Shown: piece after piece, positions 29,056 to 46,427 of the stretch
Layout: each line of letters starts with the position of its first letter
Position numbering within the stretch: position 1 is the stretch's first letter
DNA from: a virus
DNA: 61,078 bases
Strand: one strand, 5' to 3'
Virus record (IMG/VR): IMGVR_UViG_3300036979_000267
Span: 1 to 61,078 of that record
Program-made: the position numbers and the translations under genes
The notes under the pieces: model-generated
Databases searched by the model: none
The model's input: the letters and a program-made list of their open reading frames with translations, nothing else
What the model was told of the DNA's origin: nothing

Positions 29056-29071
29056 TAATCCTGCGGAATTA
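29056..29071. repeat. Degenerate 16-bp palindrome
   Basis: TAATCCTGCGGAATTA differs from the repeated palindrome TAATCCC-NN-GGGATTA at two arm positions. It lies just upstream of the -35 box of the promoter for the 228-residue early gene, where a bound protein could regulate it. Confidence 0.6.
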
Positions 29072-29081
29072 CGTGGCGCAC

Positions 29082-29108
29082 TTGTCGTTCACGTACCTAT
29101 GTTATAAT
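29082..29108 (+). promoter_or_regulatory. Sigma70-like promoter for the first early gene
   Basis: TTGTCG at 29082-29087 and a perfect TATAAT at 29103-29108 are separated by 15 bases. The -10 box is consensus; the spacer is short. Transcription would start near 29115 and read into the gene at 29184. Confidence 0.6.
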
Positions 29109-29183
29109 TCAGTCGTGGCCGGATTACTGGCCTACCGTCCCAGCGGGTTTATTGGGCAACTTGATTATTAGGAGTTTCATACC

Positions 29184-29870
29184 ATGGCTAAAAACCAAAA
29201 GTCTATCGATACCGTTATCGTCGCCACCCCTGCGGTCGTGACCCTTATCAATGCGGCCGGTAAAGCCGCGGGCACAATGTACAGCAAGACGCTAGAAGCA
29301 GCGAAGCTAGCATCCGCGGAGTTAAACGGGGCTAAGCCGATGGCCGAGCGTATTTCTGAGGTTGTCACCCGGTACGCTGATACATTTAAGGCTCTCAAGA
29401 CGAACGCGAACAACGTCAGGTCAATTTTCGTTGACGCCCTCACACTGCACGCATGTGCAGGCGACCAGGTGACGATTGTCGGAGCGGATAAGTCACAGCA
29501 AACATTGTCTGCATCCGCTGCCGTGGCCACACTGGCTAAGAACCCAATGAGGGAAGCAGCAAAGCAGGTAAGGGAAACACACGACATGGGCCGGAAAACA
29601 AAGCCGAAGGAAGTCATCATCAAACCCGCTATTGATACCGCAGGGCTTCAACGCGAAACGCTGGCCGAAGTTGCCGATCATATGGCAAGCCCTGATTTCG
29701 TGGCAAAACTTGTCGCCCTGATGGATGTCGCCGGATACATTCTGCAGGCAAAGGCGAAGCTAGCAAATCAGGCGCCCGCGAAGCCCGCGAAGCCAGCAAA
29801 GCTCGTGACCATGGCAAGCCTACCGGTTCACCGGGTAACTGGTGCCGTGAACCTGCCCGCGCCACTGTAA
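29184..29870 (+). CDS. First rightward early gene, Ala/Lys-rich protein
   Basis: The 228-residue protein starts MAKNQKSIDTVIVATPAVVT with TTAGGAG upstream. It is helical and Ala/Lys-rich. The C-terminal part carries a PAKPAKPAK repeat before the end. No motif identifies it. Being the first gene transcribed after entry from a consensus -10 promoter, with its own downstream hairpin, it may act in host takeover or defence evasion. This is inference from position. Confidence 0.65.
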   Translation: MAKNQKSIDTVIVATPAVVTLINAAGKAAGTMYSKTLEAAKLASAELNGAKPMAERISEVVTRYADTFKALKTNANNVRSIFVDALTLHACAGDQVTIVGADKSQQTLSASAAVATLAKNPMREAAKQVRETHDMGRKTKPKEVIIKPAIDTAGLQRETLAEVADHMASPDFVAKLVALMDVAGYILQAKAKLANQAPAKPAKPAKLVTMASLPVHRVTGAVNLPAPL

Positions 29871-29877
29871 TAACCCA

Positions 29878-29895
29878 GAGCCCCCATGGGGGCTC
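29878..29895. terminator. Perfect 8-bp hairpin after the first early gene
   Basis: GAGCCCCC and GGGGGCTC form an 8-bp stem around the two bases AT, 8 bases after the stop codon. There is no T-run, so it may be an mRNA 3'-end stabiliser rather than an intrinsic terminator. Confidence 0.5.
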
Positions 29896-29912
29896 GCACT
29901 GGAGAATCTATT

Positions 29913-30059
29913 ATGCTTATCAATTCCACATCCCGAACATACTGGTTTTTAGTCTGCCCATTGTCCCGCGTGGGAGTGTTGCGAGTGTATGCGGCACGTG
30001 TCGAACAGGACTACACGACGTGGGTTCACGTGCTCCCATGCTGGGCACCAGCACCCTAA
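29913..30059 (+). CDS. Small ORF (48 aa), early region
   Basis: ATG at 29913 with GGAG eight bases upstream, inside the recurring ACTGGAGA leader, opens 48 codons ending TAA just before a strong terminator. The product starts MLINSTSRTYWFLVCPLS and is Trp/Cys-containing. The ribosome site and the terminator directly after it support a real gene. Function unknown. Confidence 0.55.
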   Translation: MLINSTSRTYWFLVCPLSRVGVLRVYAARVEQDYTTWVHVLPCWAPAP

Positions 30060-30063
30060 CCCC

Positions 30064-30091
30064 AAGGCCCCACACGGGGCCTTTTATTTTT
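30064..30091 (+). terminator. Rho-independent terminator
   Basis: An 8-bp stem AAGGCCCC/GGGGCCTT with an ACAC loop is followed by TTATTTTT. It lies 5 bases after the 48-codon gene and closes the first early transcription unit. Confidence 0.88.
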
Positions 30092-30140
30092 CCCAAGGGG
30101 TAACTACTATCACCTCGCTCTGGCCGCTCTGCGGCCTTTC

Positions 30141-30188
30141 GGCCTTCCCACTACTGTCATGCGACGGGGCCTTCCCACTACTGTCATG
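30141..30188 (+). repeat. 21-base tandem repeat, period 27
   Basis: The 21 bases at 30141-30161 recur exactly at 30168-30188. Each copy contains the TACTGTCA variant of the iteron, so the tandem duplication doubles that site. Confidence 0.85.
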
Positions 30189-30210
30189 GATCGGCGCGGG
30201 GCTGGGCGGC

Positions 30211-30226
30211 TAATCCCGCGGGATTA
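30211..30226. repeat. 16-bp palindrome, copy 1 (centre CG)
   Basis: TAATCCCGCGGGATTA is a perfect palindrome, intergenic, immediately after the tandem iterons. Confidence 0.9.
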
Positions 30227-30648
30227 GGTACGGTAGTTGCCACGTACACAGAGATAAGAGGGACAGAAATCTAAGAATTAACTAATTAGCGCCCACAAAA
30301 AATCGTAGCGTGGCGAAGCCCCTGTTTATGCGGGTTTCGACGACTAATTCGTTTCTGTCTCGGGTAACGTGGTTGGCACAGAGTACGATAGATATTTGAA
30401 TGCGTAAGTGCTTGATTCCATTGGGTTTTCTACCGACCGGCATATGGAGTAGTTATATATAGTTTTTATTTCATTTAATCATCATTTCTAAAGAGTCGTG
30501 TGGCAAAATGTTTTCCCCTGACCCCCTCCAAATTGCGATCCCCAAATACTCCTTCCACGGTGACTCTCTTGGGCGGATTTCCAATCTAATTAACTACCGC
30601 TTCGTAACTACATGATTCCAAAGAATAAAGTCGTAGATGGCCCAATAA

Positions 30649-30671
30649 TATAATGAACTAAGGTGTATAAT
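30649..30671 (+). promoter_or_regulatory. Two TATAAT boxes before the 286-residue gene
   Basis: TATAAT occurs at 30649-30654 and again at 30666-30671, 32 bases before the start codon. No good -35 box was seen at the right distance, so only the -10 elements are proposed. Confidence 0.45.
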
Positions 30672-30702
30672 TTCCCCACCTAAAACCAACTAAGGAACCC
30701 CG

Positions 30703-31563
30703 ATGACCAAATTTATCAATGACCTGCCTGAGTTAGAAGCCACGTATCTGCACGAGCAGCTCAAGTACGACCCCGAGACTGGCGCGCTGGTGTGGATCGT
30801 CAAGCGCCAAGGCGTTACCTGTGGGGCTGTTGCTGGGCTGCGTCGCTACGAAGGTGACTCCATCCACATCGGCCTTCGTAAATTCCAGTACCCTGCCGAG
30901 CTACTCGTGTGGGTAATGCGCCGGGGCTCGTGGCCTTCGCACATACCGTACCACATGGACCAAAACCGAAGTAATAATCTAATTGCGAATCTGGCGCTGC
31001 CCGTGGGCGCGCACCAGATAAAACCCCCACGCCAAAGGCGCATGCAGGTCGTGCTGGCACGGCTAGACGCAACCCCTGTCCCCGACACCTTTGCCGCCGC
31101 CCTTGCACCCACCATCAGCCTCGACCTTGCACGGTTAGGCACGACAGCCCCTGCCGACGCCTTTGCCCCAGACACCAAGCGGAACAACCGGGGGCGCAAG
31201 CACGCGCTGGTATCCATTCGACTACCCGCCAAGGCGCCGGAGCCCACTGCGCTGGAGGCCATGCAGTCGCTAATAATAAAGGCGCGCGTCGAACTGGCAC
31301 ACGAGCAGGGCAACCCCCCGGACATGAGCCCAGCACCGGAGAACATCGCAGGGCGCGCCGCCGTGATCGAGTACACCCGCAAGCTGGCCAGCTTGGAGGA
31401 GCGCATCCGCGGTATGCAACGCAAGATCGCCACCATGGAGGAGCAGGACGCCCAGAACCCCATGACCTCAGACACGGCCACACACCAGCCCATCAAAGGG
31501 TTGTCCACACTGCAGGGCCTGTTCGCCAAAGCCCTTGGAGGCACACCCCACAAAATCACGTGA
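30703..31563 (+). CDS. Protein with degenerate HNH_3-like N-terminal domain
   Basis: The 286-residue protein begins with a segment (about residues 18-105) resembling HNH_3 homing endonucleases: LKYDPETGALVWIVK, LLVWVMRRGSWP and YHMDQNRSNNLIANL. The last of these matches the HxDxNxxNN...NL core, but the preceding metal-binding residues look altered. The remaining 180 residues are Ala/Pro/Arg-rich with a coiled coil near 225-255. It could be an endonuclease domain reused for DNA binding. A ribosome site, AAGGAA, lies 8 bases upstream. Confidence 0.6.
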   Translation: MTKFINDLPELEATYLHEQLKYDPETGALVWIVKRQGVTCGAVAGLRRYEGDSIHIGLRKFQYPAELLVWVMRRGSWPSHIPYHMDQNRSNNLIANLALPVGAHQIKPPRQRRMQVVLARLDATPVPDTFAAALAPTISLDLARLGTTAPADAFAPDTKRNNRGRKHALVSIRLPAKAPEPTALEAMQSLIIKARVELAHEQGNPPDMSPAPENIAGRAAVIEYTRKLASLEERIRGMQRKIATMEEQDAQNPMTSDTATHQPIKGLSTLQGLFAKALGGTPHKIT

Positions 31564-31574
31564 ACCACTACCTA

Positions 31575-31603
31575 TTGACAAGTACCCCAAAACCTGTTAC
31601 AAT
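31575..31603 (+). promoter_or_regulatory. Sigma70 promoter
   Basis: A consensus TTGACA at 31575-31580 is followed, after exactly 17 bases, by TACAAT at 31598-31603. It is one of the clearest promoters in the window and drives the gene cluster beginning at 31711. The 16-bp palindrome lies 50 bases downstream, within the leader. Confidence 0.85.
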
Positions 31604-31653
31604 ATACCCAGTGAGTCAGAAAGCGTCTAGGTTTTCACTCACTGCCCCTCGCT

Positions 31654-31669
31654 TAATCCCGCGGGATTA
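31654..31669. repeat. 16-bp palindrome, copy 2 (centre CG)
   Basis: A perfect TAATCCC-CG-GGGATTA lies in the leader between the promoter at 31575 and the gene at 31711. Confidence 0.9.
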
Positions 31670-31710
31670 GGTTCTCAACTTGTTACTTTGTTCTTATTAG
31701 GAGATTCGCT

Positions 31711-32040
31711 ATGTCCAACCACGTATTCAACGAACTCAACGCGTTCAACGCACTCAACGCACTCCATGAGGAGCGGGCATTGCTCCAGGCGGAGTTGGCC
31801 TTACTACGAGAGGACAACGCAGCCCTCAATGCTGCACTGCAGGACTACACCGCACCCCGCACCGTGGGCCAGCTTCTCGACGACCTCGACCACTACCCGA
31901 CCTGCGAACTTATGGCGGCCCTGCACGGCGCGGTGCTGCACTCCAACGGCCTCGACTTTTGTGAGCGTGACACCATGCTGGAACTGGCCGCCATGCTGCG
32001 CATGGAAGCTGTGCGCCGGGGCAGCACAGCCGCTCTCTAA
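31711..32040 (+). CDS. Coiled-coil hypothetical protein
   Basis: The 109-residue protein starts MSNHVFNELNAFNALNALHE and has a Leu/Ala/Glu coiled coil at about residues 17-45. The remainder is helical, with a YPTCELMAALHGAVLHSNG segment. It has GGAG ahead of the start. Its TAA stop is the first three bases of palindrome copy 3. Function unknown. Confidence 0.65.
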   Translation: MSNHVFNELNAFNALNALHEERALLQAELALLREDNAALNAALQDYTAPRTVGQLLDDLDHYPTCELMAALHGAVLHSNGLDFCERDTMLELAAMLRMEAVRRGSTAAL

Positions 32041-32053
32041 TCCCACGGGATTA
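32038..32053. repeat. 16-bp palindrome, copy 3 (centre AC)
   Basis: The TAA of the palindrome is the stop codon of the coiled-coil gene. Confidence 0.9.
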
Positions 32054-32089
32054 CGGTATTCTCATTCACTTAATTACTTAGGATTTCAT

Positions 32090-32248
32090 ATGCCTCTCTT
32101 CAACACATTTCGCAAGGGTCTCCAGCTCTTCATGATCTACACCCGCGACGGTCACCCCGTCGGTATGCTGTGGGCCGGTTCATCGGAAGCAGCCAAGGGT
32201 CGTGCCGACCGGCTCGGTGGCGCAGGCTCCACAGTGGAAAGGGCGTAA
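32090..32248 (+). CDS. Small hypothetical protein (52 aa)
   Basis: ATG at 32090 with AGGAT six bases upstream opens 52 codons. The product starts MPLFNTFRKGLQLFMIYTRD and is basic at the end. It lies between palindrome copy 3 and the next gene with no overlap. Function unknown. Confidence 0.55.
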   Translation: MPLFNTFRKGLQLFMIYTRDGHPVGMLWAGSSEAAKGRADRLGGAGSTVERA

Positions 32249-32252
32249 CACC

Positions 32253-32510
32253 ATGGCCGCACAACTCTGGGCAACAGTCAACGGGACACTGCACGAGGCC
32301 AAGGCCGCGCCACTGTGGTGGCAGGATGCGTGCCTGTCACAGACCGCGTCGGGGTACGGCGACAAGCTGACCACACGCTACATGGTACTGCTGGACAAGC
32401 GGTGGCGCCGCATCTATTGCTACCAGCACAGCAACATCGGCACGCTGTTCATCGGCAAGAGCGTGGCCAAGGGCACCATCGTCACTTACATCGGCACGGA
32501 GGCACCATGA
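32253..32510 (+). CDS. Hypothetical protein (85 aa)
   Basis: The ATG at 32253 begins MAAQLWATVNGTLHEAKA. The protein has alternating strands with basic and aromatic residues (RYMVLLDKRWRRIYCYQ), which suggests a small SH3- or OB-like fold. It overlaps the next gene by 4 bases (ATGA). An in-frame start upstream would run into the preceding gene. Confidence 0.55.
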   Translation: MAAQLWATVNGTLHEAKAAPLWWQDACLSQTASGYGDKLTTRYMVLLDKRWRRIYCYQHSNIGTLFIGKSVAKGTIVTYIGTEAP

Positions 32511-32800
32511 TCGCCAAAACCATTCCCCCTAATCCCACGGGATTAGCTTTCACCGAGACCAAGCTGCTGCTGCCTGCGCACTGGGCATGCGCATTGATCA
32601 ACGGGGATTACACGGGCTTCGACATCACACCCAGTGACGCCCACGAGATCAGCATTATTTGTGAGGTTCAACGGCTCTACGGTTCCTGCGTTGCCGCCTC
32701 TGACTACCCCGAGTTCGCATGGACTCACGACGCGACAGCCGACGGCGTACTGGCCGCTGACTGCCTGACATTCACATTCATCGAGCAGCATCATGACTAA
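32507..32800 (+). CDS. Hypothetical protein containing palindrome copy 4
   Basis: The start ATG overlaps the preceding stop. The first codons run through the 16-bp palindrome, which is read as NPTGL here. The remaining 80 residues include aromatic and acidic segments (WTHDATADGVLAAD) without a recognised family. The next gene starts 8 bases before its stop. Confidence 0.55.
   Translation: MIAKTIPPNPTGLAFTETKLLLPAHWACALINGDYTGFDITPSDAHEISIICEVQRLYGSCVAASDYPEFAWTHDATADGVLAADCLTFTFIEQHHD
32530..32545. repeat. 16-bp palindrome, copy 4 (centre AC)
   Basis: It lies within the coding sequence of the preceding entry, near its start codon, and encodes NPTGL. Confidence 0.9.
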
Positions 32801-33380
32801 AACAAATTCAGAAGTGGCGCAAGCCTTTGTGTCCGGCGGCGAAGCCTGCAAGGGCAGCAACACGTTGTACGACCGCATGGAGCTCCCACGCATTCCGTTA
32901 GTGGTGCGGACATTCACATCGTATTCCACGCTGGTGGCGGTGATCGCCGAGGGCACGCTATGGTGGAATGACTACCGCTCCAATTCTACGCAACGACAAC
33001 TCAGCTACATGCATGCCGCATGGCGGACCGCGAGCGTCGGCACGGATGCTCTGAGCATGTGTGTGGAGCGTCCGCTAGAGGGGGCATCGGACAGCAACGT
33101 GTGCAGCTACGTGGTGAAGGCCGAGGACACCCTGCAAAAACTCCTGAAGCCGCGCATCCGAAACACGACCAAGGCAAACCACTGGGGCGAATTCTTGTCG
33201 CTGGTGGACCGCACCGAGCTACTGCTGACCCTGCCCTGCTACTCGTCGGCGCCAAGCAAAACTGTCATGAAACGCCTGGACACCCTGCGCCGCATCCGCG
33301 ACTCGAACGCCTCTAATCCCGTGGGATTAGACCGCGTCATCACCAATGTACGTGCGATACACGCACTGGAAGGAAAGTAA
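32793..33380 (+). CDS. Hypothetical accessory protein
   Basis: The 195-residue protein starts MTKTNSEVAQAFVSGGEAC, with a middle helix and a Lys/Arg-rich segment (LLKPRIRNTTKANHW). Palindrome copy 5 lies in frame near the C-terminus and reads NPVGL. No family recognised. It is one of a run of overlapping early genes. Confidence 0.55.
   Translation: MTKTNSEVAQAFVSGGEACKGSNTLYDRMELPRIPLVVRTFTSYSTLVAVIAEGTLWWNDYRSNSTQRQLSYMHAAWRTASVGTDALSMCVERPLEGASDSNVCSYVVKAEDTLQKLLKPRIRNTTKANHWGEFLSLVDRTELLLTLPCYSSAPSKTVMKRLDTLRRIRDSNASNPVGLDRVITNVRAIHALEGK
33314..33329. repeat. 16-bp palindrome, copy 5 (centre GT)
   Basis: Perfect arms, inside a coding sequence and read as NPVGL. Confidence 0.88.
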
Positions 33381-33381
33381 T

Positions 33382-33893: not shown

Positions 33894-33906
33894 GACACCC
33901 ACTAAG
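33843..33906 (+). repeat. Left copy of a duplicated gene junction
   Basis: This 64-base stretch covers the DUF2591 tail, its stop and the first codons of the endonuclease gene. It aligns without gaps to 34336-34399, which covers the endonuclease tail, stop and first codons of the next gene. Identity by eye is about two thirds, with many differences at third codon positions, so the copies are old or of different origin. Confidence 0.8.
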
Positions 33907-34399: not shown

Positions 34400-34630
34400 A
34401 AACTCGTTGGGGACTTCAAAACGCTGCGGGAAACACGTGACGAGGCCAACAGGCTGGTGATAAACGTCACGTCACACCCCGAGGCCACACAGGAGCAGAT
34501 ACTGCGGGCACGGGATAGCGGCCTGCGTATCGGCGCACGATACAAAGAGATTCGGGCCGATCTTCGGGAGATTTACCCAAACCAAAGTTACTGGCGGACT
34601 TACCCATGGAATGATAAGGAGGAATCATGA
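34373..34630 (+). CDS. Hypothetical protein displaced from the DUF2591 gene
   Basis: The ATG at 34373 sits within the DUF2591-type tail sequence, so before the endonuclease insertion this gene would have overlapped the DUF2591 gene directly. The 85-residue protein starts MNSSKTPPKKLVGDFKTL and is charged and helical, with EATQEQILRARDSGLRIG. It overlaps the next gene by 4 bases. Family not recognised. Confidence 0.6.
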   Translation: MNSSKTPPKKLVGDFKTLRETRDEANRLVINVTSHPEATQEQILRARDSGLRIGARYKEIRADLREIYPNQSYWRTYPWNDKEES

Positions 34631-35232
34631 GCGACACATACAGAACGGATACCCGAGAGGCGCCATGCGGTACGCGATACCGCGTGGACTGGGAGTACGA
34701 CAACGACTACGGTATGCCGGAGAAGGAGTCCGATGGGCATGGGGTAGTTGTGGAGTTGGTTGAGGACCCAGCGGACTACATGGATCAGTTCGACGAAGAC
34801 GACGATCCCGACATGGAAGAGGTCATCCGGCACAAGATGATGCGGCGCTTGTCGGGGTATCACCACACACATAGACACGGGCAGGTGAAGTATTACGACG
34901 TGTGGGAAACACGGAAGAGGGCCGCGGCCGAGGGCTGGGGGGTCGATAATCCCATGGGATTAAGCCCCGAGGAGATCATCGACGCGGCCATTGATGCGGA
35001 CTTCAAGTACCTGCGTGGTTGGTACAACGACAACTGGCACTGGTGCGGCATCACGGTGACCCTGCTGGCCGAGGACGAGGATGGCGACGACGAGGATACC
35101 GAGTGGGATAGCAGTCTATGGGGGGTCAACTCCGAGGACGATGCGCACCACGAGGAAGTTATTGCCGAGTTGCTGGCGGATGTGCTAGGTCGCCGAGCCG
35201 AAGCAACAACTGTCATAACCGCTACCGCTTGA
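34627..35232 (+). CDS. Acidic hypothetical protein with DUF-like phage signature
   Basis: The 201-residue protein has an N-terminal WEYDNDYGMPEKESDGHG segment and an acidic run (DQFDEDDDPDMEE). A second half includes YLRGWYNDNWHWCGITVTLL and WDSSLWGVNSEDD, a pattern known in several phage proteins of unknown function. Palindrome copy 6 lies in frame and reads NPMGL. AGGAGG precedes the start. Confidence 0.6.
   Translation: MSDTYRTDTREAPCGTRYRVDWEYDNDYGMPEKESDGHGVVVELVEDPADYMDQFDEDDDPDMEEVIRHKMMRRLSGYHHTHRHGQVKYYDVWETRKRAAAEGWGVDNPMGLSPEEIIDAAIDADFKYLRGWYNDNWHWCGITVTLLAEDEDGDDEDTEWDSSLWGVNSEDDAHHEEVIAELLADVLGRRAEATTVITATA
34947..34962. repeat. 16-bp palindrome, copy 6 (centre AT)
   Basis: Perfect arms with an ATG in the centre; read in frame as NPMGL within the acidic protein. 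Confidence 0.88.
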
Positions 35233-35276: not shown

Positions 35277-35885
35277 ATGTACAACCCAACAATAGCACCG
35301 CTCACTGCACGCGACCTAGAAATGTATGAGTTGCTGCTCGCGGGCACTACCTTAGCGGACACGGGGCGCAAATACGGGGTGAGCCGACAGCGAGTGAAGC
35401 AGGTGGTAAACAAACTATCCGCATGGGGCAAGCCGACAAACGCAAAAGCAGTACGCGATGCATCTAAGCATGCGGGGTACTTAGAGCAGAAAGTTTCCAA
35501 GTTTGGAGCGTCGTACTCTGAGATTGCAGCGAGCCCAGAACTACTAGCCCTTCTAAAAAAGCGGATAACACTGAAACGCAACCACGCGATGCAGAACGGG
35601 GTACCTTTTGACCTTACGATATCTGATCTATACCCGCTACCAGAAGTATGCCCTGTACTAGGTATACCGATTCACTACGGGACAGGCCACACGGGGGCTG
35701 CGGACAACGCTATGTCGATAGACCGGATTGATCCCAGCAAGGGCTATGTCCGAGGGAATATACAACTAATGTCGATGCGCGCCAACCGCATAAAGAACAA
35801 CGCAACCCCGGACGAATTGCGGCGGGTAGCGGACTTCTACGCCCTCTGCGCTTTACATTCGGAAAAAGTACCGCTTGACAAATAG
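35277..35885 (+). CDS. HNH-like endonuclease with N-terminal helix-turn-helix
   Basis: The 202-residue protein begins with a helix-turn-helix-like segment (LLAGTTLADTGRKYGVSRQRVKQVV). The C-terminal half has LPEVCPVLGIPIHYG and SIDRIDPSKGYVRGNIQLMS followed by RANRIKNNAT, a pattern common to phage endonucleases with a His-Me-type core. AAAGGA lies upstream. It is a plausible freestanding homing endonuclease in the early region. Confidence 0.75.
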   Translation: MYNPTIAPLTARDLEMYELLLAGTTLADTGRKYGVSRQRVKQVVNKLSAWGKPTNAKAVRDASKHAGYLEQKVSKFGASYSEIAASPELLALLKKRITLKRNHAMQNGVPFDLTISDLYPLPEVCPVLGIPIHYGTGHTGAADNAMSIDRIDPSKGYVRGNIQLMSMRANRIKNNATPDELRRVADFYALCALHSEKVPLDK

Positions 35886-35902
35886 TTTGTTTCTGCTATA
35901 AT
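35875..35902 (+). promoter_or_regulatory. Sigma70 promoter
   Basis: A consensus TTGACA at 35875-35880 and TATAAT at 35897-35902 are separated by 16 bases. The start of the signal overlaps the last codons of the preceding endonuclease gene. It should drive the gene block from 35981 onward. Confidence 0.88.
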
Positions 35903-35952
35903 AGAGTCTCAGGTGGTAATTCACCTGTGTTTTTTCTTATTAACTTGTTAGC

Positions 35953-35968
35953 TAATCCCACGGGATTA
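35953..35968. repeat. 16-bp palindrome, copy 7 (centre AC)
   Basis: It is located between the promoter at 35875 and the ATG at 35981, 12 bases ahead of that start codon. Confidence 0.9.
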
Positions 35969-36218: not shown

Positions 36219-36536
36219 GTGTCTAATATAGATGGCAACGGCTACGGCAACGGCAACGGCTACGGCAGCGGCTACGGCTACGGCGACGGCTACGGCTACG
36301 GCGACGGCGACGGCGACGGCAGCGGCGACGGCAACGGCAACGGCGACGGCGACGGCAACAGCCACGGCAACGGCAACGGCAACGGCAGCGGCTACGGCAA
36401 CGGCAAAGGCGGCGGCTACGGCAAAGGCTACGGCAACGGCAACGGCAACGGCAACGGCATACAACCCTTCGTGGTCTCGGATTACACCGGCGACAGCATG
36501 GCATCGGCTGTGCTGGTTTCACAACTTGTTACCTAA
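36219..36536 (+). CDS. Gly-Asn/Tyr/Asp dipeptide-repeat protein
   Basis: The 105-residue frame starts at GTG (36219), one base after the preceding stop. Residues 5-82 alternate Gly with Asn, Tyr, Asp, Ser or Lys (for example GNGYGNGNGYGSGYGYGDG). The last 25 residues, PFVVSDYTGDSMASAVLV, form a more ordinary domain. The bias for GGC at Gly and a mix of aromatic and acidic residues resemble phase-separating or surface-adhesive repeat peptides, but nothing proves a function. The stop TAA is from palindrome copy 8. Confidence 0.7.
   Translation: MSNIDGNGYGNGNGYGSGYGYGDGYGYGDGDGDGSGDGNGNGDGDGNSHGNGNGNGSGYGNGKGGGYGKGYGNGNGNGNGIQPFVVSDYTGDSMASAVLVSQLVT
36231..36459 (+). repeat. Tandem GGCNNC repeat tract
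   Basis: About 38 consecutive hexamer units of the form GGC plus NAC or NGC run without interruption. In frame 36219 they give Gly-X dipeptides. Such a tract is prone to slipped-strand expansion and contraction, always in whole codons. Confidence 0.9.
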
Positions 36537-36549
36537 TCCCACGGGATTA
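36534..36549. repeat. 16-bp palindrome, copy 8 (centre AC)
   Basis: Its first three bases are the stop codon of the repeat protein, and the ATG of the DUF3150-like gene is 11 bases after it. Confidence 0.9.
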
Positions 36550-36560
36550 AGAAAGTATTT

Positions 36561-37439
36561 ATGTCAATCAAAAACAATTCACTGATCGTGTCTCTTACGG
36601 TGCGTAAGCCCCAGTTGTCGGCTAAAGACGACAAGGCTACGTTCGACGCCGAGGTGGCCAACAACGCCGCTGGTGCGGGCAAGTACACCAAGGACTTGTA
36701 CCCCAAGAGCCTGATCGCCCCCATCATTGCCGTCGAGTCGGCGGCCCGGGCATACATTGAGCGCAACACGTACCCATGGGGTAGGAGCCGGGGCTCTGAC
36801 CTGCTGCCCATGACCAAGTTCATGGGCTTCACCAGCCGTGTCGGCGAGTTCGAGATTCAGTTCTCGCAGGCTGTGACGGTGTTCCTGAACAACTGGACCA
36901 ACGTGATGATCGAAGCGCAGCGCAGGCAGGGAGCACTCTTTGATGCGGCTGCGTACCCAGACGTGAGCGACCTCAAGGCCCAGTTCGCCTTCGAGATCAG
37001 CTACCTGCCAGTCACGGACATGAGCGACTTTCGTGTGGCGGCCAGCGAGGCAGAGACCGACATTCTCAAGGCGTCCGTGGAGCGTGATGTGCTGCGTGCC
37101 CAAGAGGCGCTGATTGAGGCGCCCCTGCAGCGACTGCGTGATGCCGTCGAGAAGCTGGCCACGGTGACTGGCGCGAGCCGCACCAAGGTCAACAAGAAGA
37201 CTGGCGAGACCGAGATGGTGGCTCCCATCTTCCGCGACACCCTGATCGACAACCTGCTGCACGAGGTGTCCATGATCGCCGAGTTTGCAGACCTGCTGCC
37301 CGACAACGTCAAGGCTGTGGCTGCGCAGGCCAAAGACATTGCACCGCATCCTGACGCGCTGCGTGTGGACCCGGACCTTCGCACCAAGACGCACGCTGCG
37401 TCGAAGGCACTGCTGGCCGCTATCGGGGAGATGATGTGA
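36561..37439 (+). CDS. DUF3150-like protein
   Basis: The 292-residue protein is helical and Ala-rich, with segments typical of DUF3150: KYTKDLYPKSLIAPIIAVES, SAARAYIERNTYPWG and LPMTKFMGFTSRVGEFE. In phages and plasmids DUF3150 proteins are encoded beside MoxR-type ATPases and VWA-metallopeptidases, as here (38299 and 39835). They may form a chaperone-like complex. It overlaps the next gene (TGATG). The ATG follows palindrome copy 8. Confidence 0.7.
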   Translation: MSIKNNSLIVSLTVRKPQLSAKDDKATFDAEVANNAAGAGKYTKDLYPKSLIAPIIAVESAARAYIERNTYPWGRSRGSDLLPMTKFMGFTSRVGEFEIQFSQAVTVFLNNWTNVMIEAQRRQGALFDAAAYPDVSDLKAQFAFEISYLPVTDMSDFRVAASEAETDILKASVERDVLRAQEALIEAPLQRLRDAVEKLATVTGASRTKVNKKTGETEMVAPIFRDTLIDNLLHEVSMIAEFADLLPDNVKAVAAQAKDIAPHPDALRVDPDLRTKTHAASKALLAAIGEMM

Positions 37440-37705
37440 TGGCAACTAAAGCTGCGGACAAACCGCTGATCGACCCGAACGACCCCATGGTTGTCGTGAG
37501 CAACAACGGATTTGCGTCCCTGATGCTGCCCATGAGCAAGGCCAAGGAATTGGTGACGCTCGTGATGTTTGCGGAGAAGGTCGAGTGGGACTACACTCCG
37601 AAGACTTGGAGGCCCTCGGGCTATGAAAACAACTGCGAGATCAAGCAGGTGTCGCTGGCGCAGTATGTTGCGTACCAGATGGCAAAGGCTGAGAAGCAAA
37701 CCTAA
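37439..37705 (+). CDS. Small hypothetical protein of the MoxR block
   Basis: The ATG at 37439 shares one base with the TGA of the DUF3150-like gene, so the genes are coupled. The 88-residue product contains VVVSNNGFASLMLPMSKAKEL and AEKVEWDYTPKTW. The stop TAA is supplied by palindrome copy 9. Function unknown. Confidence 0.65.
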   Translation: MATKAADKPLIDPNDPMVVVSNNGFASLMLPMSKAKELVTLVMFAEKVEWDYTPKTWRPSGYENNCEIKQVSLAQYVAYQMAKAEKQT

Positions 37706-37718
37706 TCCCACGGGATTA
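37703..37718. repeat. 16-bp palindrome, copy 9 (centre AC)
   Basis: The first TAA ends the preceding gene. Confidence 0.9.
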
Positions 37719-38298: not shown

Positions 38299-39312
38299 TT
38301 GAGAATTGGACACATCACACCCCTCATCGCCAAGCGTTACACCAACGAGGCAACCCGCAAGCGCGCCATGTTCATCGTGGGCAAGTCAGGTATCGGCAAG
38401 TCCGAGTGCGTGTATCAGGCCAGCGAGTTGCTGGGCCAGCACATCGAGGGATGGCAAGGTGTCGTGGACCTGCGCTTGTCGCAGATGGAACCCACGGACC
38501 TGAAGGGTATCCCGGTGCCCAACCACGAGGCAGGCACAACTGTCATGTACCGCCCCGACACGATCCCCCAGACCGGCTCGGGCATTTTGTTCCTCGACGA
38601 GATCACGTCTGCTCCCCCCAGCATTCAGGCTGCGGCATACGAGATGGTGCTGACACCTGAGCACTACGGTATCCCGAAAGGTTGGATGGTTGTGGCTGCT
38701 GGCAACTTGCAGAGCGACCGCGGTGTGACATTCCAGATGGCCGGACCACTACTCAACCGCTTCAACAAGATTGAGGCTGTGACCACACTGGACGACTTCA
38801 TTGACCACGCAGTGACCCGCGACATCGCCCCCGAGGTGACATCGTTCCTCAAGTCCCGCGCGGACTACCTGCACAAGTTTGAAGGCACTGGTGTGATTGA
38901 TTCCTTTCCCAGCCCACGCTCGTGGTTCGCTGTGTCTGACTCGCTGTCGCTGGACCTGCGCCCCGCTGACCGTGTGGAGTCCTTCAAGGGTGATGTAGGC
39001 CACGAGGCTGCTGTTGCATTCGAGGCGCACCTGCGTGTCTGGGAGTCGATGCCCAGTCTGGACGCTATTCTGGCCGGTAAGGACATTGACGTGCCCGAGA
39101 AGATGGATGTGCGGTACTGCATCGCCATGGGCTTGGCTGCCCGTGTGAACGAGAAGAACTTCGATGGCGCATGGAACTTCCTCCAGAAGATGCCCAAGGA
39201 CATACAGACACTGACCGTCAAGCTGTCGTACAGGAGATGCAAGCAACTTGTATTAAGTTCGTCGTTCACTACATGGGCTGCGGCAAACCAGTCAGCTTTT
39301 AAGCGTGGCTAA
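38299..39312 (+). CDS. MoxR-like AAA+ ATPase
   Basis: The start is placed at TTG 38299 because GGAG lies seven bases upstream within the recurring ACTGGAGA leader and the frame upstream shows no other site. The 337-residue protein has Walker A GKSGIGKS (residues 28-35), Walker B GILFLDEITS with Asp100 and Glu101, and a sensor-type NLQSDRG segment. MoxR ATPases act as chaperone-like activators of VWA-domain partners, and such a partner is encoded at 39835. The stop TAA is part of palindrome copy 10. Confidence 0.85.
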   Translation: MRIGHITPLIAKRYTNEATRKRAMFIVGKSGIGKSECVYQASELLGQHIEGWQGVVDLRLSQMEPTDLKGIPVPNHEAGTTVMYRPDTIPQTGSGILFLDEITSAPPSIQAAAYEMVLTPEHYGIPKGWMVVAAGNLQSDRGVTFQMAGPLLNRFNKIEAVTTLDDFIDHAVTRDIAPEVTSFLKSRADYLHKFEGTGVIDSFPSPRSWFAVSDSLSLDLRPADRVESFKGDVGHEAAVAFEAHLRVWESMPSLDAILAGKDIDVPEKMDVRYCIAMGLAARVNEKNFDGAWNFLQKMPKDIQTLTVKLSYRRCKQLVLSSSFTTWAAANQSAFKRG

Positions 39313-39325
39313 TCCCATGGGATTA
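39310..39325. repeat. 16-bp palindrome, copy 10 (centre AT)
   Basis: TAATCCCATGGGATTA supplies both the stop of the MoxR-like gene (TAA) and, in its centre, the likely ATG of the next gene at 39317. Confidence 0.9.
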
Positions 39326-39813: not shown

Positions 39814-39834
39814 CTTTTTTACTGGAGATTTACT

Positions 39835-40968: not shown

Positions 40969-41174
40969 GCCTGTCCGAATCGTTGTATATTTCATGGCAG
41001 CGATTTTGTGCCATCGAGCTTGGGCGCCCACTGGACATGAACTCCATTGAGCCCGGCTTGGTGTCGCACGTTGTGCCCGATGGGCAGCCACCCTTCCGCT
41101 GTGCGGATGGAACGGTGCGCAAACTTTCTATGGCTTACGAACTTGAGGACTTACACAATGAATTTCCAAACTGA
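40965..41174 (+). CDS. Small hypothetical protein (69 aa)
   Basis: The frame overlaps the upstream stop by 4 bases and starts MSLSESLYISWQRFCAIELG. It is mixed, with two Cys. It ends within the start region of the next gene. Function unknown. Confidence 0.55.
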   Translation: MSLSESLYISWQRFCAIELGRPLDMNSIEPGLVSHVVPDGQPPFRCADGTVRKLSMAYELEDLHNEFPN

Positions 41175-41421
41175 AGTATTGAACAAACTGACCCGCCTTG
41201 AGAGCAAGGTAGTGCGAGGCTTCGAGGAACTTGGTGCCGACACAGACGTGGACCCGAACTGGTTGAGTGTCGATGAGGCATCACGTGTCATCTACGTGTC
41301 CACACTCGGGCGCTCATTCAAGATCATGCACAGCGTGGCAATACAAAAAGGCGCCAAGCAATTTGGCAAAGAGTACGACATCGTCCACAAAGGCGATGTC
41401 GTTGGAACCGTAACCCTGTAA
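41158..41421 (+). CDS. Hypothetical protein (87 aa)
   Basis: ATG 41158 is inside the previous gene and begins MNFQTEVLNKLTRLESKVVR, a short coiled-coil followed by a strand segment (RVIYVSTLGRSFKIMHS). Palindrome copy 11 begins 2 bases after its stop. Function unknown. Confidence 0.6.
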   Translation: MNFQTEVLNKLTRLESKVVRGFEELGADTDVDPNWLSVDEASRVIYVSTLGRSFKIMHSVAIQKGAKQFGKEYDIVHKGDVVGTVTL

Positions 41422-41422
41422 C

Positions 41423-41438
41423 TAATCCCGTGGGATTA
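41423..41438. repeat. 16-bp palindrome, copy 11 (centre GT)
   Basis: Perfect arms, lying two bases after the preceding stop and 10 bases before the small lipoprotein ATG. Confidence 0.9.
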
Positions 41439-41622: not shown

Positions 41623-41623
41623 C

Positions 41624-41800: not shown

Positions 41801-41803
41801 GGG

Positions 41804-42199: not shown

Positions 42200-42582
42200 T
42201 GAGCGCAGAACTTGAAATGACTGATCTAGAAATAGACAAAGCCCTCGCGCTGGCGATTGGGTGGACGGTAACCCGCATTGACGAAAACGGTTGCATTGGC
42301 CCCGATGTGGCGATTGGGTGGCCTATACGGACTGTACTTGCCTATCCAGATACTACTGGCTGCTGGGTCTGGACTGATGGCAACTGGCGCATCTTCTCTC
42401 ACCTTGACTGGAACGTCATCGGGCCGATTGCGGAACGGTACGACTGCTTTCCGTTTCAGATTCGCAGCAAGGAGGAGGACTTCGGGAAGTGGAACGTAAT
42501 CAGGTGCGGAGAGAACGACATCATGGATGCAAGCCCACAACGAGCCATAGCACTGGCGGTGATTCAAGGAGCAAAGACATGA
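42199..42582 (+). CDS. Hypothetical protein with phage DUF pattern
   Basis: AAAGGAGGTG lies directly upstream of ATG 42199 (MSAELEMTDLEIDKALAL), a very strong ribosome site. The 127-residue protein includes WPIRTVLAYPDTTGCW and IGPIAERYDCFPFQIRS, then SPQRAIALAVIQ, a pattern seen in short phage proteins near DUF2591-type genes. It overlaps the next gene by 4 bases. Confidence 0.6.
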   Translation: MSAELEMTDLEIDKALALAIGWTVTRIDENGCIGPDVAIGWPIRTVLAYPDTTGCWVWTDGNWRIFSHLDWNVIGPIAERYDCFPFQIRSKEEDFGKWNVIRCGENDIMDASPQRAIALAVIQGAKT

Positions 42583-42722
42583 AGCTCCGACACCGCCGCA
42601 AACAGTTCTGGTGGACGTGGCACCACTGCACGCAACTGTACCCCTACTACTCCAAGCTCTACGGCATGTTCGATTGGGGCGTAGGCCGTATCAACCACCA
42701 ACACAAGGGCGTAACGAAATGA
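42579..42722 (+). CDS. Small basic Trp/His-rich protein (47 aa)
   Basis: The ATG at 42579 overlaps the previous stop. The product starts MKLRHRRKQFWWTWHHCTQL and is rich in aromatics, His and basic residues. It overlaps the next gene by 4 bases. Function unknown. Confidence 0.55.
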   Translation: MKLRHRRKQFWWTWHHCTQLYPYYSKLYGMFDWGVGRINHQHKGVTK

Positions 42723-42910
42723 AACTCAACGAAGCCCTCACCGCCCTGTGCAAAGCCGTCGAAGGCACAGAGATTGCTGTCAATGTAGACGCTGACGACG
42801 TGCAAATTCACTGGTTCGGCGTCACGCAAATTACCTGCTCCGCTGCTGTCGCTGCGAAGGTGATACCTGCGCTCAAGCAGCTTGAAATGTTCGGAATGAA
42901 GGACTGCTGA
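42719..42910 (+). CDS. Small hypothetical protein (63 aa)
   Basis: ATG 42719 overlaps the preceding stop as ATGA. The product starts MKLNEALTALCKAVEGTEIA with an alpha/beta pattern and ends GMKDC. Function unknown. Confidence 0.55.
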   Translation: MKLNEALTALCKAVEGTEIAVNVDADDVQIHWFGVTQITCSAAVAAKVIPALKQLEMFGMKDC

Positions 42911-42911
42911 A

Positions 42912-43094
42912 ATGACAACACCACTACCCACACCCGACTGCGGGGTCCACTACACCGAGGAGCAGATTCAAGCCTACGGCAAGGCTGAGTACGAGCGCGC
43001 CCTGCTCGACGCTATGAACGCCACGCGCGCCTTCGGCAAGACAGGCGAAGTGATCGCTGTGATTATTGCAGCACTGAAGGAGAAGAAAGAATGA
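42912..43094 (+). CDS. Small hypothetical protein (60 aa)
   Basis: The frame begins MTTPLPTPDCGVHYTEEQIQ and is helical toward the Lys/Glu-rich end. It overlaps the next gene by 4 bases. Function unknown. Confidence 0.5.
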   Translation: MTTPLPTPDCGVHYTEEQIQAYGKAEYERALLDAMNATRAFGKTGEVIAVIIAALKEKKE

Positions 43095-43291
43095 CATCCT
43101 ATCAAGCAGGCCCCGAGGGCGGCGAGTTCATCTACCCGCACATCGACAAGCGCTGGCCGGAGCCGGGGGCCAAGGTGTCCCTGCTCACCAAGGGCGGCAT
43201 CCATACCACCGGCCCGTGGGACGCATCGTTCTGCGTGGCTTGGCTACCACTACCGAAACGCAACAAGGACAAAGAAGATGCCAAGACATAA
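43091..43291 (+). CDS. Small hypothetical protein (66 aa)
   Basis: The product contains PEPGAKVSLLTKGGIHTTG and FCVAWLPLPKR, a short beta-type protein. It overlaps the next gene by 14 bases. Function unknown. Confidence 0.5.
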   Translation: MTSYQAGPEGGEFIYPHIDKRWPEPGAKVSLLTKGGIHTTGPWDASFCVAWLPLPKRNKDKEDAKT

Positions 43292-43547
43292 TGCTCGCAC
43301 TTGCAAGTGCCCACCGGACTCCCCGTTCCACTGGCAAACCGCGATAGATTCCCGCTCGTTCACCCCAGTCGAGTTGCGTGCGCGGCACAGTGCAGCAGCT
43401 AGTGCGACAGTTGAGACCAAGCGCGCGGAAGGTAAGGACTACGGCCAGATTGCCGGGCTGTCCAAAAACAGCGAAGCGTACATGGACCGGATGCAGGGAA
43501 ACTTCGCGCCAAAGAGGACTCGTCGTGCCAAGACCAAAGCCGCCTGA
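43278..43547 (+). CDS. Hypothetical protein (89 aa)
   Basis: The start MPRHNARTCKCPPDSPFHWQ carries a Cys pair and His, and a basic C-terminal tail (PKRTRRAKTK). The next gene begins inside it at GTG 43525. A small nucleic-acid-binding protein is possible but not shown. Confidence 0.5.
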   Translation: MPRHNARTCKCPPDSPFHWQTAIDSRSFTPVELRARHSAAASATVETKRAEGKDYGQIAGLSKNSEAYMDRMQGNFAPKRTRRAKTKAA

Positions 43548-43785
43548 GAAACTGTTCGAGCGATGCGTGCGACTGACGGACGCGCAGTGGGCAGAGCTAC
43601 ATAGAAGGGGCGGAGTGTCGTGGTTACGTGCAGACCTTGGTGGGTCTCACAGCCTTGAGCAGTGGCGCATGGAGCGTAACCAAGGTATAAAGGATGCGCA
43701 CAGCCGGGGCGACAAACCCCTTGTGTTGGCGAACCAGTATGGTTTGCATATTTCCCACGTCCATCGAATTTTGAAAGCGCCCTGA
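43525..43785 (+). CDS. Probable helix-turn-helix DNA-binding protein
   Basis: A GTG at 43525 with AGAGGA ten bases upstream opens 86 codons. The product begins with PRPKPPEKLFERCVRLTDAQ. The C-terminus, SRGDKPLVLANQYGLHISHV, fits a helix-turn-helix followed by HRILKAP. It could be a phage transcription regulator of the early region. The helix-turn-helix reading is by pattern. Confidence 0.55.
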   Translation: MPRPKPPEKLFERCVRLTDAQWAELHRRGGVSWLRADLGGSHSLEQWRMERNQGIKDAHSRGDKPLVLANQYGLHISHVHRILKAP

Positions 43786-43787
43786 CC

Positions 43788-43967
43788 ATGGCACATACCG
43801 CAGATACCCCCACATACTCTACGTGGGAACGACAACCACTTGTGGACGAGGCCACACGGCTATACAACTTGTTGCTGGAGAAACAGCATGAGATCGAGTG
43901 TTTGAAACTCGACATCAAAACCCGCCGCGAGGCATACCGTAAATTTATTGTGGAGACTAGCAAATGA
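43788..43967 (+). CDS. Small coiled-coil protein (59 aa)
   Basis: ATG 43788 opens 59 codons ending at TGA 43965-43967, overlapping the next start by 4 bases. The product starts MAHTADTPTYSTWERQPLVD and has a heptad-rich helix (LLLEKQHEIECLKLDIK). Function unknown. Confidence 0.55.
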   Translation: MAHTADTPTYSTWERQPLVDEATRLYNLLLEKQHEIECLKLDIKTRREAYRKFIVETSK

Positions 43968-44185
43968 GCGCAGCGAAAAAGAAACAGGTCGGGGGCGAGC
44001 ACTACAGGTCCAAGACCGTGCAGCCGTGGGATGTCATCGACTCCTGCATGAGCAAAGAAGAGGCCGTGGGCTTCTACCGGGGAAACGTCATCAAGTACAC
44101 CATGCGATGCAACGACAAGGGTGGCGTCGAGGACTTGCGCAAGGCGCAGCACTACATGGAAAAGTTGCTGGAGGTGTTGTCGTGA
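43964..44185 (+). CDS. DUF3310 family protein (SaV-like)
   Basis: The 73-residue protein has the DUF3310 pattern: QVGGEHYRSKTVQPWDVID, GFYRGNVIKYTMRCNDKGG and EDLRKAQHYMEKLLEVL. These small phage proteins are often described as nucleotide-metabolism-associated, without proven activity. It overlaps both neighbours by 4 bases. Confidence 0.85.
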   Translation: MSAAKKKQVGGEHYRSKTVQPWDVIDSCMSKEEAVGFYRGNVIKYTMRCNDKGGVEDLRKAQHYMEKLLEVLS

Positions 44186-44580
44186 GCGGCCCGGTATTTA
44201 ACCCCGACGCATACAGGGACGCCCTCGTCGGCGGCGGACTTTCGACGTACACCAAGCGCGATTGGTTGCCGGAAAACACAGCAGCACGGCAGGCACTGGA
44301 CCGAATACCGACGGCTTCAGCGCTCCCGGTGGCCCTTTTTGTGCGGAATATTGAAAATGGGTATGTGGTAGTGCACAAGGGGGCAGAGTATTTTTGCGAA
44401 GACTTTGAAAAAGTCGCGGCGCGTGTCGTGGCAATACTGGCTGCCGATGCCATGGACAGAACAAACCAGCCGCGCCCGGTGCAAGATCAGGCTGCGGATG
44501 CTATGCGGTACATGTTGTCCGCGTACCCCGACATTATTCAGCCGTATGGCCACGCACTCCACATAACAGGAGCTACTTGA
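44182..44580 (+). CDS. Hypothetical protein before the DNA polymerase
   Basis: The start is taken as GTG 44182, which overlaps the preceding stop; the product is 132 residues. It starts with SGPVFNPDAYRDALVGGG and is an alpha/beta-type chain with KVAARVVAILAADAMDR. Its stop overlaps the polymerase start. Family not recognised. Confidence 0.55.
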   Translation: MSGPVFNPDAYRDALVGGGLSTYTKRDWLPENTAARQALDRIPTASALPVALFVRNIENGYVVVHKGAEYFCEDFEKVAARVVAILAADAMDRTNQPRPVQDQAADAMRYMLSAYPDIIQPYGHALHITGAT

Positions 44581-46427
44581 TGCAGACCATATACGTGGAT
44601 TTTGAGACCTACTACTCTGCGGACTACTCGCTGTCAAAGATGCAGACCGATGCGTACATCAAGGATTCCCGGTTTGAAGTTATTGGTGTGTCGGTAGGGG
44701 TCATGGATGCGAAGCCTGTGTGGTACACGGGCTCTATGTTGGAGATAGCCGGGTGGCTGCACAGTACCTTCGACTGGGGGAATTCGGCGGTCTGCTGCCA
44801 CAACACGTTGTTCGATGGCTTCATCCTGGCGCACCATTTCGGCATTAAACCGAAGTTGTGGATGGATACACTGGCGATGGCGCGCATGATTTGGCCATAC
44901 CTCCCGTCGCACTCGCTGGCCAATATTGCCAAGCATCTCAAACTGCAGGACAAGGGCACGGAGGTCGCTAATGCCATGGGATTAAGGAAGGCGGACATGA
45001 GCCCGCAATTTCTGGCCTCGTACGCCGCGTACTGTGTGGGGGACACGGAGATTTGCCGAGACATTAGCCGCGCGACGCAGCCGTTGGTGCCCGCCATTGA
45101 GTTGAAGCAGATCGACATGATTGTGCGGATGTTTACCGAGCCCCAATTCCACGGGGACATAGAGCTACTAAAGCAGCAGTATGTGACGGAGGTGGAGCGC
45201 AAGCGGGAGTTGCTGGAAAAGGCGGAGTTGCAGAAGGACATCATCATGTCCAACGACAAGTTCGCGGAGCACCTGCGCAATCTGGGTGTGGTGCCGCCGA
45301 CCAAGGTGTCCGCCAAGACCGGCAAGGTTGCGTTCGCGTTTGCCAAGACCGACAAAGAATTTCAGGCGCTACTGGAGGACGACAACGAGGAGGTAGTGGC
45401 TGCAGTGTCCGCGCGGCTCGGCGTGAAGACCACGATTGCGGAGACTCGTGTGCTGCGCATGGTGGAGATGGCCGAGCGTGGTCCGCTGCCGGTGTACCTG
45501 AATTTCTGGGGCGCGAAAACAACCGGCAGGTTGTCTGGTGGTAATGGACTTAACTGGCAAAACCTGCCAGCGCGTGGTCCGTCAGCGGGCATTCGCAAAG
45601 GCATCATCGCGCCCGAGGGGTATAAAATTCTCGTGGGGGATTCGTCCAACATCGAGTTGCGCGTGGCCATGGCGGCGGCAGGGCAGGATGATGTGGTGCA
45701 CAAGCTGGCCAGTGGTATCGACCTGTACTGCGACTTCGCGTCGAAGCTGTTCGGGCGGGTGGTGACCAAGGCCGACAAGAAGGAGCGCATGCTGGGCAAG
45801 ATCGCCATGCTTTCGCTGCAGTACGGTGCGGGCTGGGTGAAGTTTAAGGAGATGGTGCGCATCCAGTCGGGGGACATACTTCCAGACGACACCGCGCGGC
45901 GCATTGTGGACCTGTATCGGGCTGTGCATGGAAACGTGATGGACTTGCATCGGTACTGCAACGATGTGATTTTGCCCGACATAGCGCAGGGATGCTCACT
46001 GCTGCCGGTGGACCGCCACGCTTGGGCCATCACGTCGAACGAGGGCTACGGGACCGCTGCGCAGCCCGGGGTTAAGTACCACAACCTGCGGCAAGAGTTG
46101 ATGATGCGGGACGGCCGACAGGAGTTGACGTGGGTTTACACCATGGGCCGGGAGAAGGTGAAAATTTATGGCGGCAAGGTGGTAGAAAATCTTTGCCAAT
46201 ACCTTGCAGGACGCATCGTGATGTGGCAAACTGCACGCTTCAATCAGCGGTATCCGGTAGCTCTATCGGTACACGATGAAGTAGTGTGCGTAGTGCGAGA
46301 TGATCAGTTGGCGGAGGCGCAAGCCTATTTGGAGGAGTGCCTTTCTTTGGCGCCTCCGTGGTGCCGGGGGACTATTCCCTTGGCGTGTGAGACAGATTTT
46401 GGGCAGAGCTACGGCGACGCCAAGTAG
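44580..46427 (+). CDS. Family A DNA polymerase with 3'-5' exonuclease domain
   Basis: The 615-residue protein starts at ATG 44580 with GGAG eight bases upstream and overlaps the preceding stop. The first 180 residues are a DnaQ-like exonuclease: YVDFETYYS holds the two metal-binding Asp/Glu (Asp7, Glu9), with later motifs CHNTLFDGF and YCVGDTEICRD. The polymerase part has a motif A-like GDSSNIELRV (Asp354; usual Tyr replaced by Ser), motif B in RMLGKIAMLSLQYGAG and motif C VHDEV (566-567 Asp/Glu). No 5' nuclease domain. Phage replicative polymerase. Near-palindrome copy lies inside its 5' half. Confidence 0.92.
   Translation: MQTIYVDFETYYSADYSLSKMQTDAYIKDSRFEVIGVSVGVMDAKPVWYTGSMLEIAGWLHSTFDWGNSAVCCHNTLFDGFILAHHFGIKPKLWMDTLAMARMIWPYLPSHSLANIAKHLKLQDKGTEVANAMGLRKADMSPQFLASYAAYCVGDTEICRDISRATQPLVPAIELKQIDMIVRMFTEPQFHGDIELLKQQYVTEVERKRELLEKAELQKDIIMSNDKFAEHLRNLGVVPPTKVSAKTGKVAFAFAKTDKEFQALLEDDNEEVVAAVSARLGVKTTIAETRVLRMVEMAERGPLPVYLNFWGAKTTGRLSGGNGLNWQNLPARGPSAGIRKGIIAPEGYKILVGDSSNIELRVAMAAAGQDDVVHKLASGIDLYCDFASKLFGRVVTKADKKERMLGKIAMLSLQYGAGWVKFKEMVRIQSGDILPDDTARRIVDLYRAVHGNVMDLHRYCNDVILPDIAQGCSLLPVDRHAWAITSNEGYGTAAQPGVKYHNLRQELMMRDGRQELTWVYTMGREKVKIYGGKVVENLCQYLAGRIVMWQTARFNQRYPVALSVHDEVVCVVRDDQLAEAQAYLEECLSLAPPWCRGTIPLACETDFGQSYGDAK
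44969..44984. repeat. Near-perfect 16-bp palindrome inside the polymerase gene
   Basis: TAATGCCATGGGATTA differs by one base from the palindrome and is read in frame as NAMGL. It may be a decayed or convergent copy, as this is the only one in a core replication gene. Confidence 0.6.

Follow-up and report, generated by a model that had tools for sequence, protein, structure and literature searches.

Most known cases of dispersed operators served by one dedicated regulator come from temperate phages, in which they enforce immunity. The stoperators of the cluster A mycobacteriophage L5 are 13 bp long, asymmetric, strictly oriented and bound by a monomer, in phages with an integrase or parABS (PMC6550527, PMC9283540), and a transcription roadblock has been proposed for them (PMC9283540). 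In phage SPbeta, the prophage is maintained by MrpR, which has a tyrosine-recombinase fold, and the associated SPBRE element is 15 bp long, intergenic and phage-wide (PMC10516654). The Nostoc cyanophages A-1 and N-1 (65-68 kb) carry dozens of intergenic repeats, which were suggested to be possible stoperators (PMC4916379). Here, we describe a 16-bp palindrome, TAATCCC-NN-GGGATTA, dispersed in the early region of an uncultured virus, together with the first early gene (fam15; 29184-29870, + strand), whose 228-amino-acid product is proposed, on comparative evidence, to be the regulator that binds it. The window is the whole IMG/VR record IMGVR_UViG_3300036979_000267 (61,078 bases); all evidence is computational and comes from uncultured contigs, many of them fragments. 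The palindromes are probably dispersed operators at which an early DNA-binding protein, itself autoregulated, blocks transcription in a stoperator-like manner.

Results

Distribution of the palindrome

The window contains two late blocks transcribed leftward (1-28666 and 55347-61078) and one early block transcribed rightward (28.7-55.2 kb), in which genes for a MoxR-type ATPase, a VWA metallopeptidase-like protein, DNA polymerase A, an SNF2-type helicase and a DUF927-type primase were recognized. The original prediction, made from the letters of this stretch, counted 11 exact and two near copies of the palindrome and placed all of them between 29.0 and 45.0 kb (29,056-44,984). A scan of the window returned the same count and no copies elsewhere. 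The late blocks, named beforehand as a comparison, held zero copies, and the palindrome was also not found at 45-55 kb, the stretch of the early block devoted to replication. At three or fewer mismatches there were 14 matches, compared with a mean of 1.14 and a maximum of 5 in 100 dinucleotide shuffles; the three-mismatch match at 32595 is at background level. One center had been reported as CG and is actually GC: the exact copies have AC (5), GC (2), GT (2) and AT (2), purine-pyrimidine in all 11.

A pattern scan of IMG/VR found the palindrome in at least 118 stretches, many of them holding 3-10 copies (counts from IMG/VR scans are among the matches listed). The motif-rich contigs belong to one phage family, with core early genes in common with the window, and in dozens of these related uncultured phages the early region is filled with the same palindrome. 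Its presence in relatives with the same gene order, another comparison named beforehand, was confirmed. The consensus was YTAATCCC-RY-GGGATTAR (185 copies after removal of repeated flanks), with the centers AC (63), AT (60), GT (51) and GC (11) and no others. The motif tolerates unusually little change: across 1.07 Mb from motif-rich contigs there were 269 perfect, 31 one-mismatch and 7 two-mismatch copies (0, 0 and 2, respectively, after mononucleotide shuffling), although copies from related phages are not independent even with identical flanks removed. The palindrome was invariant across phages spanning 42-64% G+C. In one phage group (G014, G030 and G011) all 8-10 copies have the center AT, which suggests a lineage-specific center preference or homogenization of copies; other phages mix centers.

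Symmetry of the site

The consensus is two-fold symmetric in the outer bases and in the center. When single changes were read in the direction of transcription, G11>A, which would break an RNA pair, was the commonest (19 cases), compared with 3 cases of C4>T, which would keep a G-U pair. The outer bases were Watson-Crick paired in 59 of 226 copies (88 expected), and the folding energy of the 16-mer was small (-3.9 to -4.9 kcal/mol). A modest polarity was left (outer bases, C..A 129 vs. T..G 48; center, AC 124 vs. GT 73) and may come from coding and leader composition at the flanks. The symmetry, the direction of the changes, the outer-base pairing and the small folding energy are as expected for a dimer bound to double-stranded DNA.

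The first early gene and its co-variation with the palindrome

The start of the fam15 gene adjoins the early/late transcription junction. Its promoter-like element, TTGTCG-15-TATAAT (29082-29108, + strand), was recognized by eye and is below the scan thresholds; TATAAT-like elements are found at the equivalent place in relatives. Most fam15 loci have a palindrome copy upstream of the fam15 start, and the arm farther from the promoter is often degenerate. The window counterpart is the near copy TAATCCTGCGGAATTA (29056-29071, two mismatches), upstream of the fam15 promoter, which is proposed to be a weak autoregulatory operator.

IMG/VR was also searched with the fam15 protein alignment alone, the motif not being used. 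This search gave 69 loci, of which 55 had exact palindromes, 11 had a near copy and 3 had a changed palindrome. The near copy lies upstream of the gene in the second class, most members of which have little or no early sequence. In the third class (L440, L442 and L443, two of which are close to each other), TATTCCC-NN-GGGAATA and one-mismatch forms replace the standard palindrome. These three loci encode Ala at fam15 position 76 (window numbering), at which the 58 other aligned proteins have His (54) or Asn (4); the window protein has Asn. Among relatives that keep the standard palindrome, L037 is the closest to the variants (82-84% identity), and its residue at this position is His.

A directional repeat, ACTACTRTCAY, is present on both sides of the fam15 gene (28919, 28977, 29033, 30103, 30150 and 30177, all on the + strand). 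It is clustered around fam15 in every fam15 phage checked in which the stretch is covered, is unclustered in the other lineages checked, and is iteron- or origin-like. The repeats are unaltered in the changed-palindrome variants, and therefore the change concerns the palindrome. Some phages (G010 (L150) and L062) have a tandem pair of fam15 genes, each flanked by palindromes.

In the AlphaFold model, the predicted local distance difference test score of residues 11-130 was mostly >90, with helices at 53-63, 65-70 and 75-90 followed by strands at 95-99 and 105-109. This predicted order could be that of a winged helix-turn-helix. Residue 76 falls at the beginning of predicted helix 75-90, the place where a recognition helix would read bases. 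The fam15 protein had no match in Pfam, PHROG or PDB sequences, and the sole match of its model in BFVD was an uncharacterized phage protein (A0A6J7WQ49). No fam15 relatives were found in 50,697 deposited phage records or 72,556 plasmids, or in any examined phage of the other lineages described below.

Other early proteins were rejected as the binder. The family of 95-100 amino acids (window 41158-41421) was not found in palindrome-bearing G002, G005, G009 and G019, and the family of 201 amino acids (34627-35232) was not found in palindrome-bearing G010 and G014, some of these records being fragments. The 293-amino-acid protein and the MoxR and VWA proteins are common to lineages with other palindromes.

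Position relative to genes and promoters

Sites in relatives were oriented by the transcription of neighboring genes with a simple open reading frame (ORF) picker, which is a source of error; those in the window were oriented by hand. A Shine-Dalgarno sequence and start codon followed within 60 nt downstream in 58% of 331 unique copies, compared with 7.6% of random places and 9% of copies in the control (upstream on the other strand). Only 9% of copies were in a through-reading frame, compared with 58% of random windows. The TAA of the motif ended a frame open for at least 45 codons in 44% of the 331 copies (random TAA, 21%). Strong sigma-70 promoters (at least 10 of 12 consensus bases) preceded 60 of the 331 copies at such a distance that the palindrome starts at +28 to +62 from the predicted start point (median approximately 43), and were rare at other distances from palindromes. 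Two cases are in the window: a promoter-like TTGACA-17-TACAAT (31575-31603, + strand) followed by the palindrome at 31654-31669 (center GC), and a consensus TTGACA-16-TATAAT (35875-35902, + strand) followed by the palindrome at 35953-35968 (center AC; start codon 12 nt downstream), both palindromes starting at approximately +44. A terminator-like hairpin with a T run (35910-35927), not seen as a general feature, stands between the second promoter and its palindrome.

The original prediction described the copies as mostly intergenic. Eight of the 11 exact copies are; those at 32530-32545 (center AC, close to the ORF start), 33314-33329 (center GT, close to the end of ORF 32793-33380) and 34947-34962 (center AT, in ORF 34627-35232) are inside ORFs, as is the near copy TAATGCCATGGGATTA (44969-44984, one mismatch), which is in the DNA polymerase A gene and is of uncertain function. 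The predicted distance of 10-30 bases to the next start applied to some copies (gaps of 10, 11, 12, 31, 35, 36 and 41 nt were found) and failed at 30211-30226 (center GC), where the next called gene is 476 nt away. The stop codon of an upstream ORF is the motif's own TAA at 32038-32053 (center AC; ORF 31711-32040), 36534-36549 (center AC; 11 nt before the start of ORF 36561-37439), 37703-37718 (center AC) and 39310-39325 (center AT; MoxR-type ATPase ORF). At 41423-41438 (center GT), a stop codon is 2 nt upstream and a start is 10 nt downstream.

Immediately upstream of the palindrome at 36534 is a low-complexity ORF of NGYGNGDG-type repeats (36232-36585). A start-associated leader like ACTTGTTTACTTACTGGAGAnnnnATG is common to many genes of these phages and occurs in the window at 39819, 41610 and 46433. 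The SNF2-type helicase gene (47664-49662), judged by eye from its sequence only, is seemingly split by an intein-like insert.

Other lineages of the phage family

In phages related through DNA polymerase the dispersed palindromes are different ones, and so is the first early gene wherever the junction can be seen. Rhizobium phage RHph_TM3_14A has 36 genome-wide copies of TTACC(T)-N4..6-GGTAA within one mismatch. Further palindromes in relatives are GTCAC-N3-GTGAC, TACTGTC-N-GACAGTA, ATTAAC-N4-GTTAAT, TTCCTAC-N-GTAGGAA, TATAGTC-N-GACTATA and GCGACA-N3-TGTCGC. The fam166 first early gene pairs with palindromes spaced by one base, and fam167 pairs with TTAAC-N4-GTTAA. The latter is a second independent pair: a search with the fam167 protein gave TTAAC-N4-GTTAA in 30 of 32 loci, and the remaining two show less than 1 kb of early sequence. 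The fam15, fam166 and fam167 proteins were not detectably related, and the fam15 and fam167 profiles did not align. Palindrome types follow the PolA tree, except that fam166 is paraphyletic. By the same scan, KPP25 and Rollin, distant PolA relatives, had no strong dispersed palindrome. Published Nostoc phage repeats containing TAATCCC proved to be clustered regularly interspaced short palindromic repeats.

Bacterial genomes and lysogeny genes

The 18-base consensus had 24 matches in the genomes of 84,980 bacterial and archaeal species (257 billion bases), compared with approximately 60 expected by chance (14 fixed and 4 two-fold positions, equal base frequencies). No site clusters were found in these genomes, each match being alone in its stretch. 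The integrase and resolvase domains (PF00589 and PF00239) and the ParB N-terminal domain (PF02195) were absent from 17 phages of the family, whose records may be fragments, and the controls matched.

Discussion

The site sequences, their positions, their symmetry and their tight co-variation with the fam15 protein across phages are established by computation. The original prediction had named a dimeric protein, or a phage-specific regulator, as one reading of the palindrome; the symmetric consensus (center and outer bases included), the near-absence of the site from bacterial genomes and the co-variation with a phage protein support it. From here on we infer physical binding, dimerization, roadblock repression and its timing. 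A dimer of the 29184-29870 protein would bind each TAATCCC-RY-GGGATTA site and also the weaker copy beside its own promoter, which would make it autoregulatory. Bound at junctions between genes, or approximately 40 nt beyond the start of transcription from strong host sigma-70 promoters, the dimer would stop initiating or elongating RNA polymerase. As it accumulates, the protein would dampen its own expression and that of the early genes in the first 16 kb, and the outcome would be a timed early shut-off.

Several observations weigh against this mechanism. Most sites have no recognizable promoter of their own, and three exact window copies sit inside genes. The fam15 gene has its site on the upstream side of the promoter, from which an activator could also work. 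The variant fam15 proteins have six further private residues, all at variable columns, and the link to the protein is a correlation, which any other gene inherited along with the early region would show as well. The fam15 model had no recognized DNA-binding fold (Foldseek against PDB, best E 2.0; VIA-align, best Z 4.0), and this missing match does not show that the fold is new.

Because an activator could also act from the copy ahead of the fam15 promoter, we retain the explanation that the fam15 protein binds the sites but activates, antiterminates or organizes DNA instead of blocking transcription, for example as an early-to-middle activator, a genome-compacting protein or a replication protein. 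A protein that spreads along DNA or bridges it could likewise make use of approximately ten invariant sites in 15 kb, and the directional ACTACTRTCAY repeats that flank the gene are like origin iterons. We nevertheless regard such a role as unlikely, given that activators rarely work from positions such as those of the promoter-linked sites, which follow the start point (+28 to +62), and that the ParB N-terminal domain was absent from the 17 phages; this absence also led to the rejection of a ParB or KorB-like system. A temperate-phage immunity repressor, with the sites acting as classical stoperators that silence a prophage, would account for the lineage-specific pairing of repressor and site, which is like that of cluster A mycobacteriophage immunity (PMC6550527, PMC9283540). 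It was rejected as improbable: integrase, resolvase and ParB N-terminal domains were all missing from the 17 phages, prophage-like site clusters from the 84,980 genomes, and fam15 from the plasmids. With no integrase, resolvase or prophage-like cluster found, regulation of early genes in a virulent phage is a likelier role than lysogenic repression, and the lifestyle is probably virulent, insofar as records that may be fragments allow. For the recombination site suggested earlier there was no sign either: tyrosine and serine recombinases were not found in the same 17 phages.

The palindrome could act in RNA as a hairpin, with a part in RNA processing, in the stability of mRNA or, close to the ribosome-binding site, in the control of translation; the original prediction had also considered a hairpin and RNA processing. 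Sites do stand in leaders just before Shine-Dalgarno sequences, the 16-mer can fold weakly, and in the fam167 lineage the palindrome includes the Shine-Dalgarno sequence (TTAACAGGAGTTAA, with ATG 3-5 nt later) in 44 of 114 sites (phages L445-L476). For the TAATCCC lineage, however, the excess of pair-breaking over wobble-keeping changes and the outer-base pairing below expectation led us to reject a hairpin. Counting also the two-fold symmetric degeneracy of the center and the variation of the palindrome together with the helix-start residue of the first early protein, we find a function in RNA very improbable. A conserved host protein exploited by the phages would agree with the many bacterial regulators that fit palindromes of such size. 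A host regulon was rejected on the bacterial matches, which are below chance and never more than one per fetched stretch; the invariance of the site over phages of 42-64% G+C and its change together with a phage protein also oppose a host protein, which is largely refuted and keeps a minimal probability.

We also put forward a wider interpretation, tentatively and at slightly less than even confidence. In virulent phages of this large uncultured family, a lineage-specific and previously undescribed DNA-binding protein, encoded by the first early gene, and approximately ten matching palindromes may form an early shut-off network, the protein and all of its sites having been repeatedly exchanged together. 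The phages considered here have no detected lysogeny module and comprise many lineages, each with its own palindrome and first early protein. They offer a natural series for a long-standing question, the joint change of specificity in a regulator and ten or more sites, and a one-residue hypothesis: position 76 from His or Asn to Ala, with TAAT to TATT. If true, this would give a function to unannotated protein families without a match in the deposited phages searched, and a new DNA-binding fold in strictly virulent phages, if true, would raise the significance further.

Comparison with known systems

Phage P1 C1 and RK2 KorB each have about a dozen dispersed operators per regulator, as do the sites described here; P1 operators are asymmetric, RK2 is a plasmid, and the proteins and sites are unrelated to those of this family. 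ParB-parS and KorB-type systems need a CTPase of the ParB, KorB or Noc kind, whereas PF02195 is absent from the 17 phages. The motifs of Nostoc phages A-1 and N-1 are asymmetric and no binding protein was proposed for them, whereas a palindromic site and a candidate protein are available here.

The system shares several features with cluster A (L5). Many copies of one short site are dispersed over the genome, in promoters and in short gaps between genes; from one relative to the next the site varies along with its repressor (here a putative one); and a copy is found in the upstream region of the regulator gene itself. A counterpart of the cluster A elongation block would, by analogy, be indicated by a single feature, the position of sites downstream of promoters. 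Unlike in cluster A, the site here is a 16-bp palindrome with a symmetric consensus, and no integrase or ParB gene was found (17 phages, possibly fragments). The weak polarity of its outer bases and center may come from flanking composition. L5 gp71 has an N-terminal helix-turn-helix and a Stoperator domain; fam15 had no Pfam, PHROG, PDB or fold match. With SPBRE-MrpR the system shares a phage-wide repeated intergenic element and one dedicated phage regulator; a tyrosine-recombinase fold was not among the matches of the fam15 model (Foldseek and VIA), PF00589 was absent and no lysogeny gene was found. Defining features of stoperators (an asymmetric 13-mer and a temperate phage with an integrase or parABS) are missing, and the protein does not allow placement in either group, but in the way it would work the system is like a stoperator system or SPBRE-MrpR.

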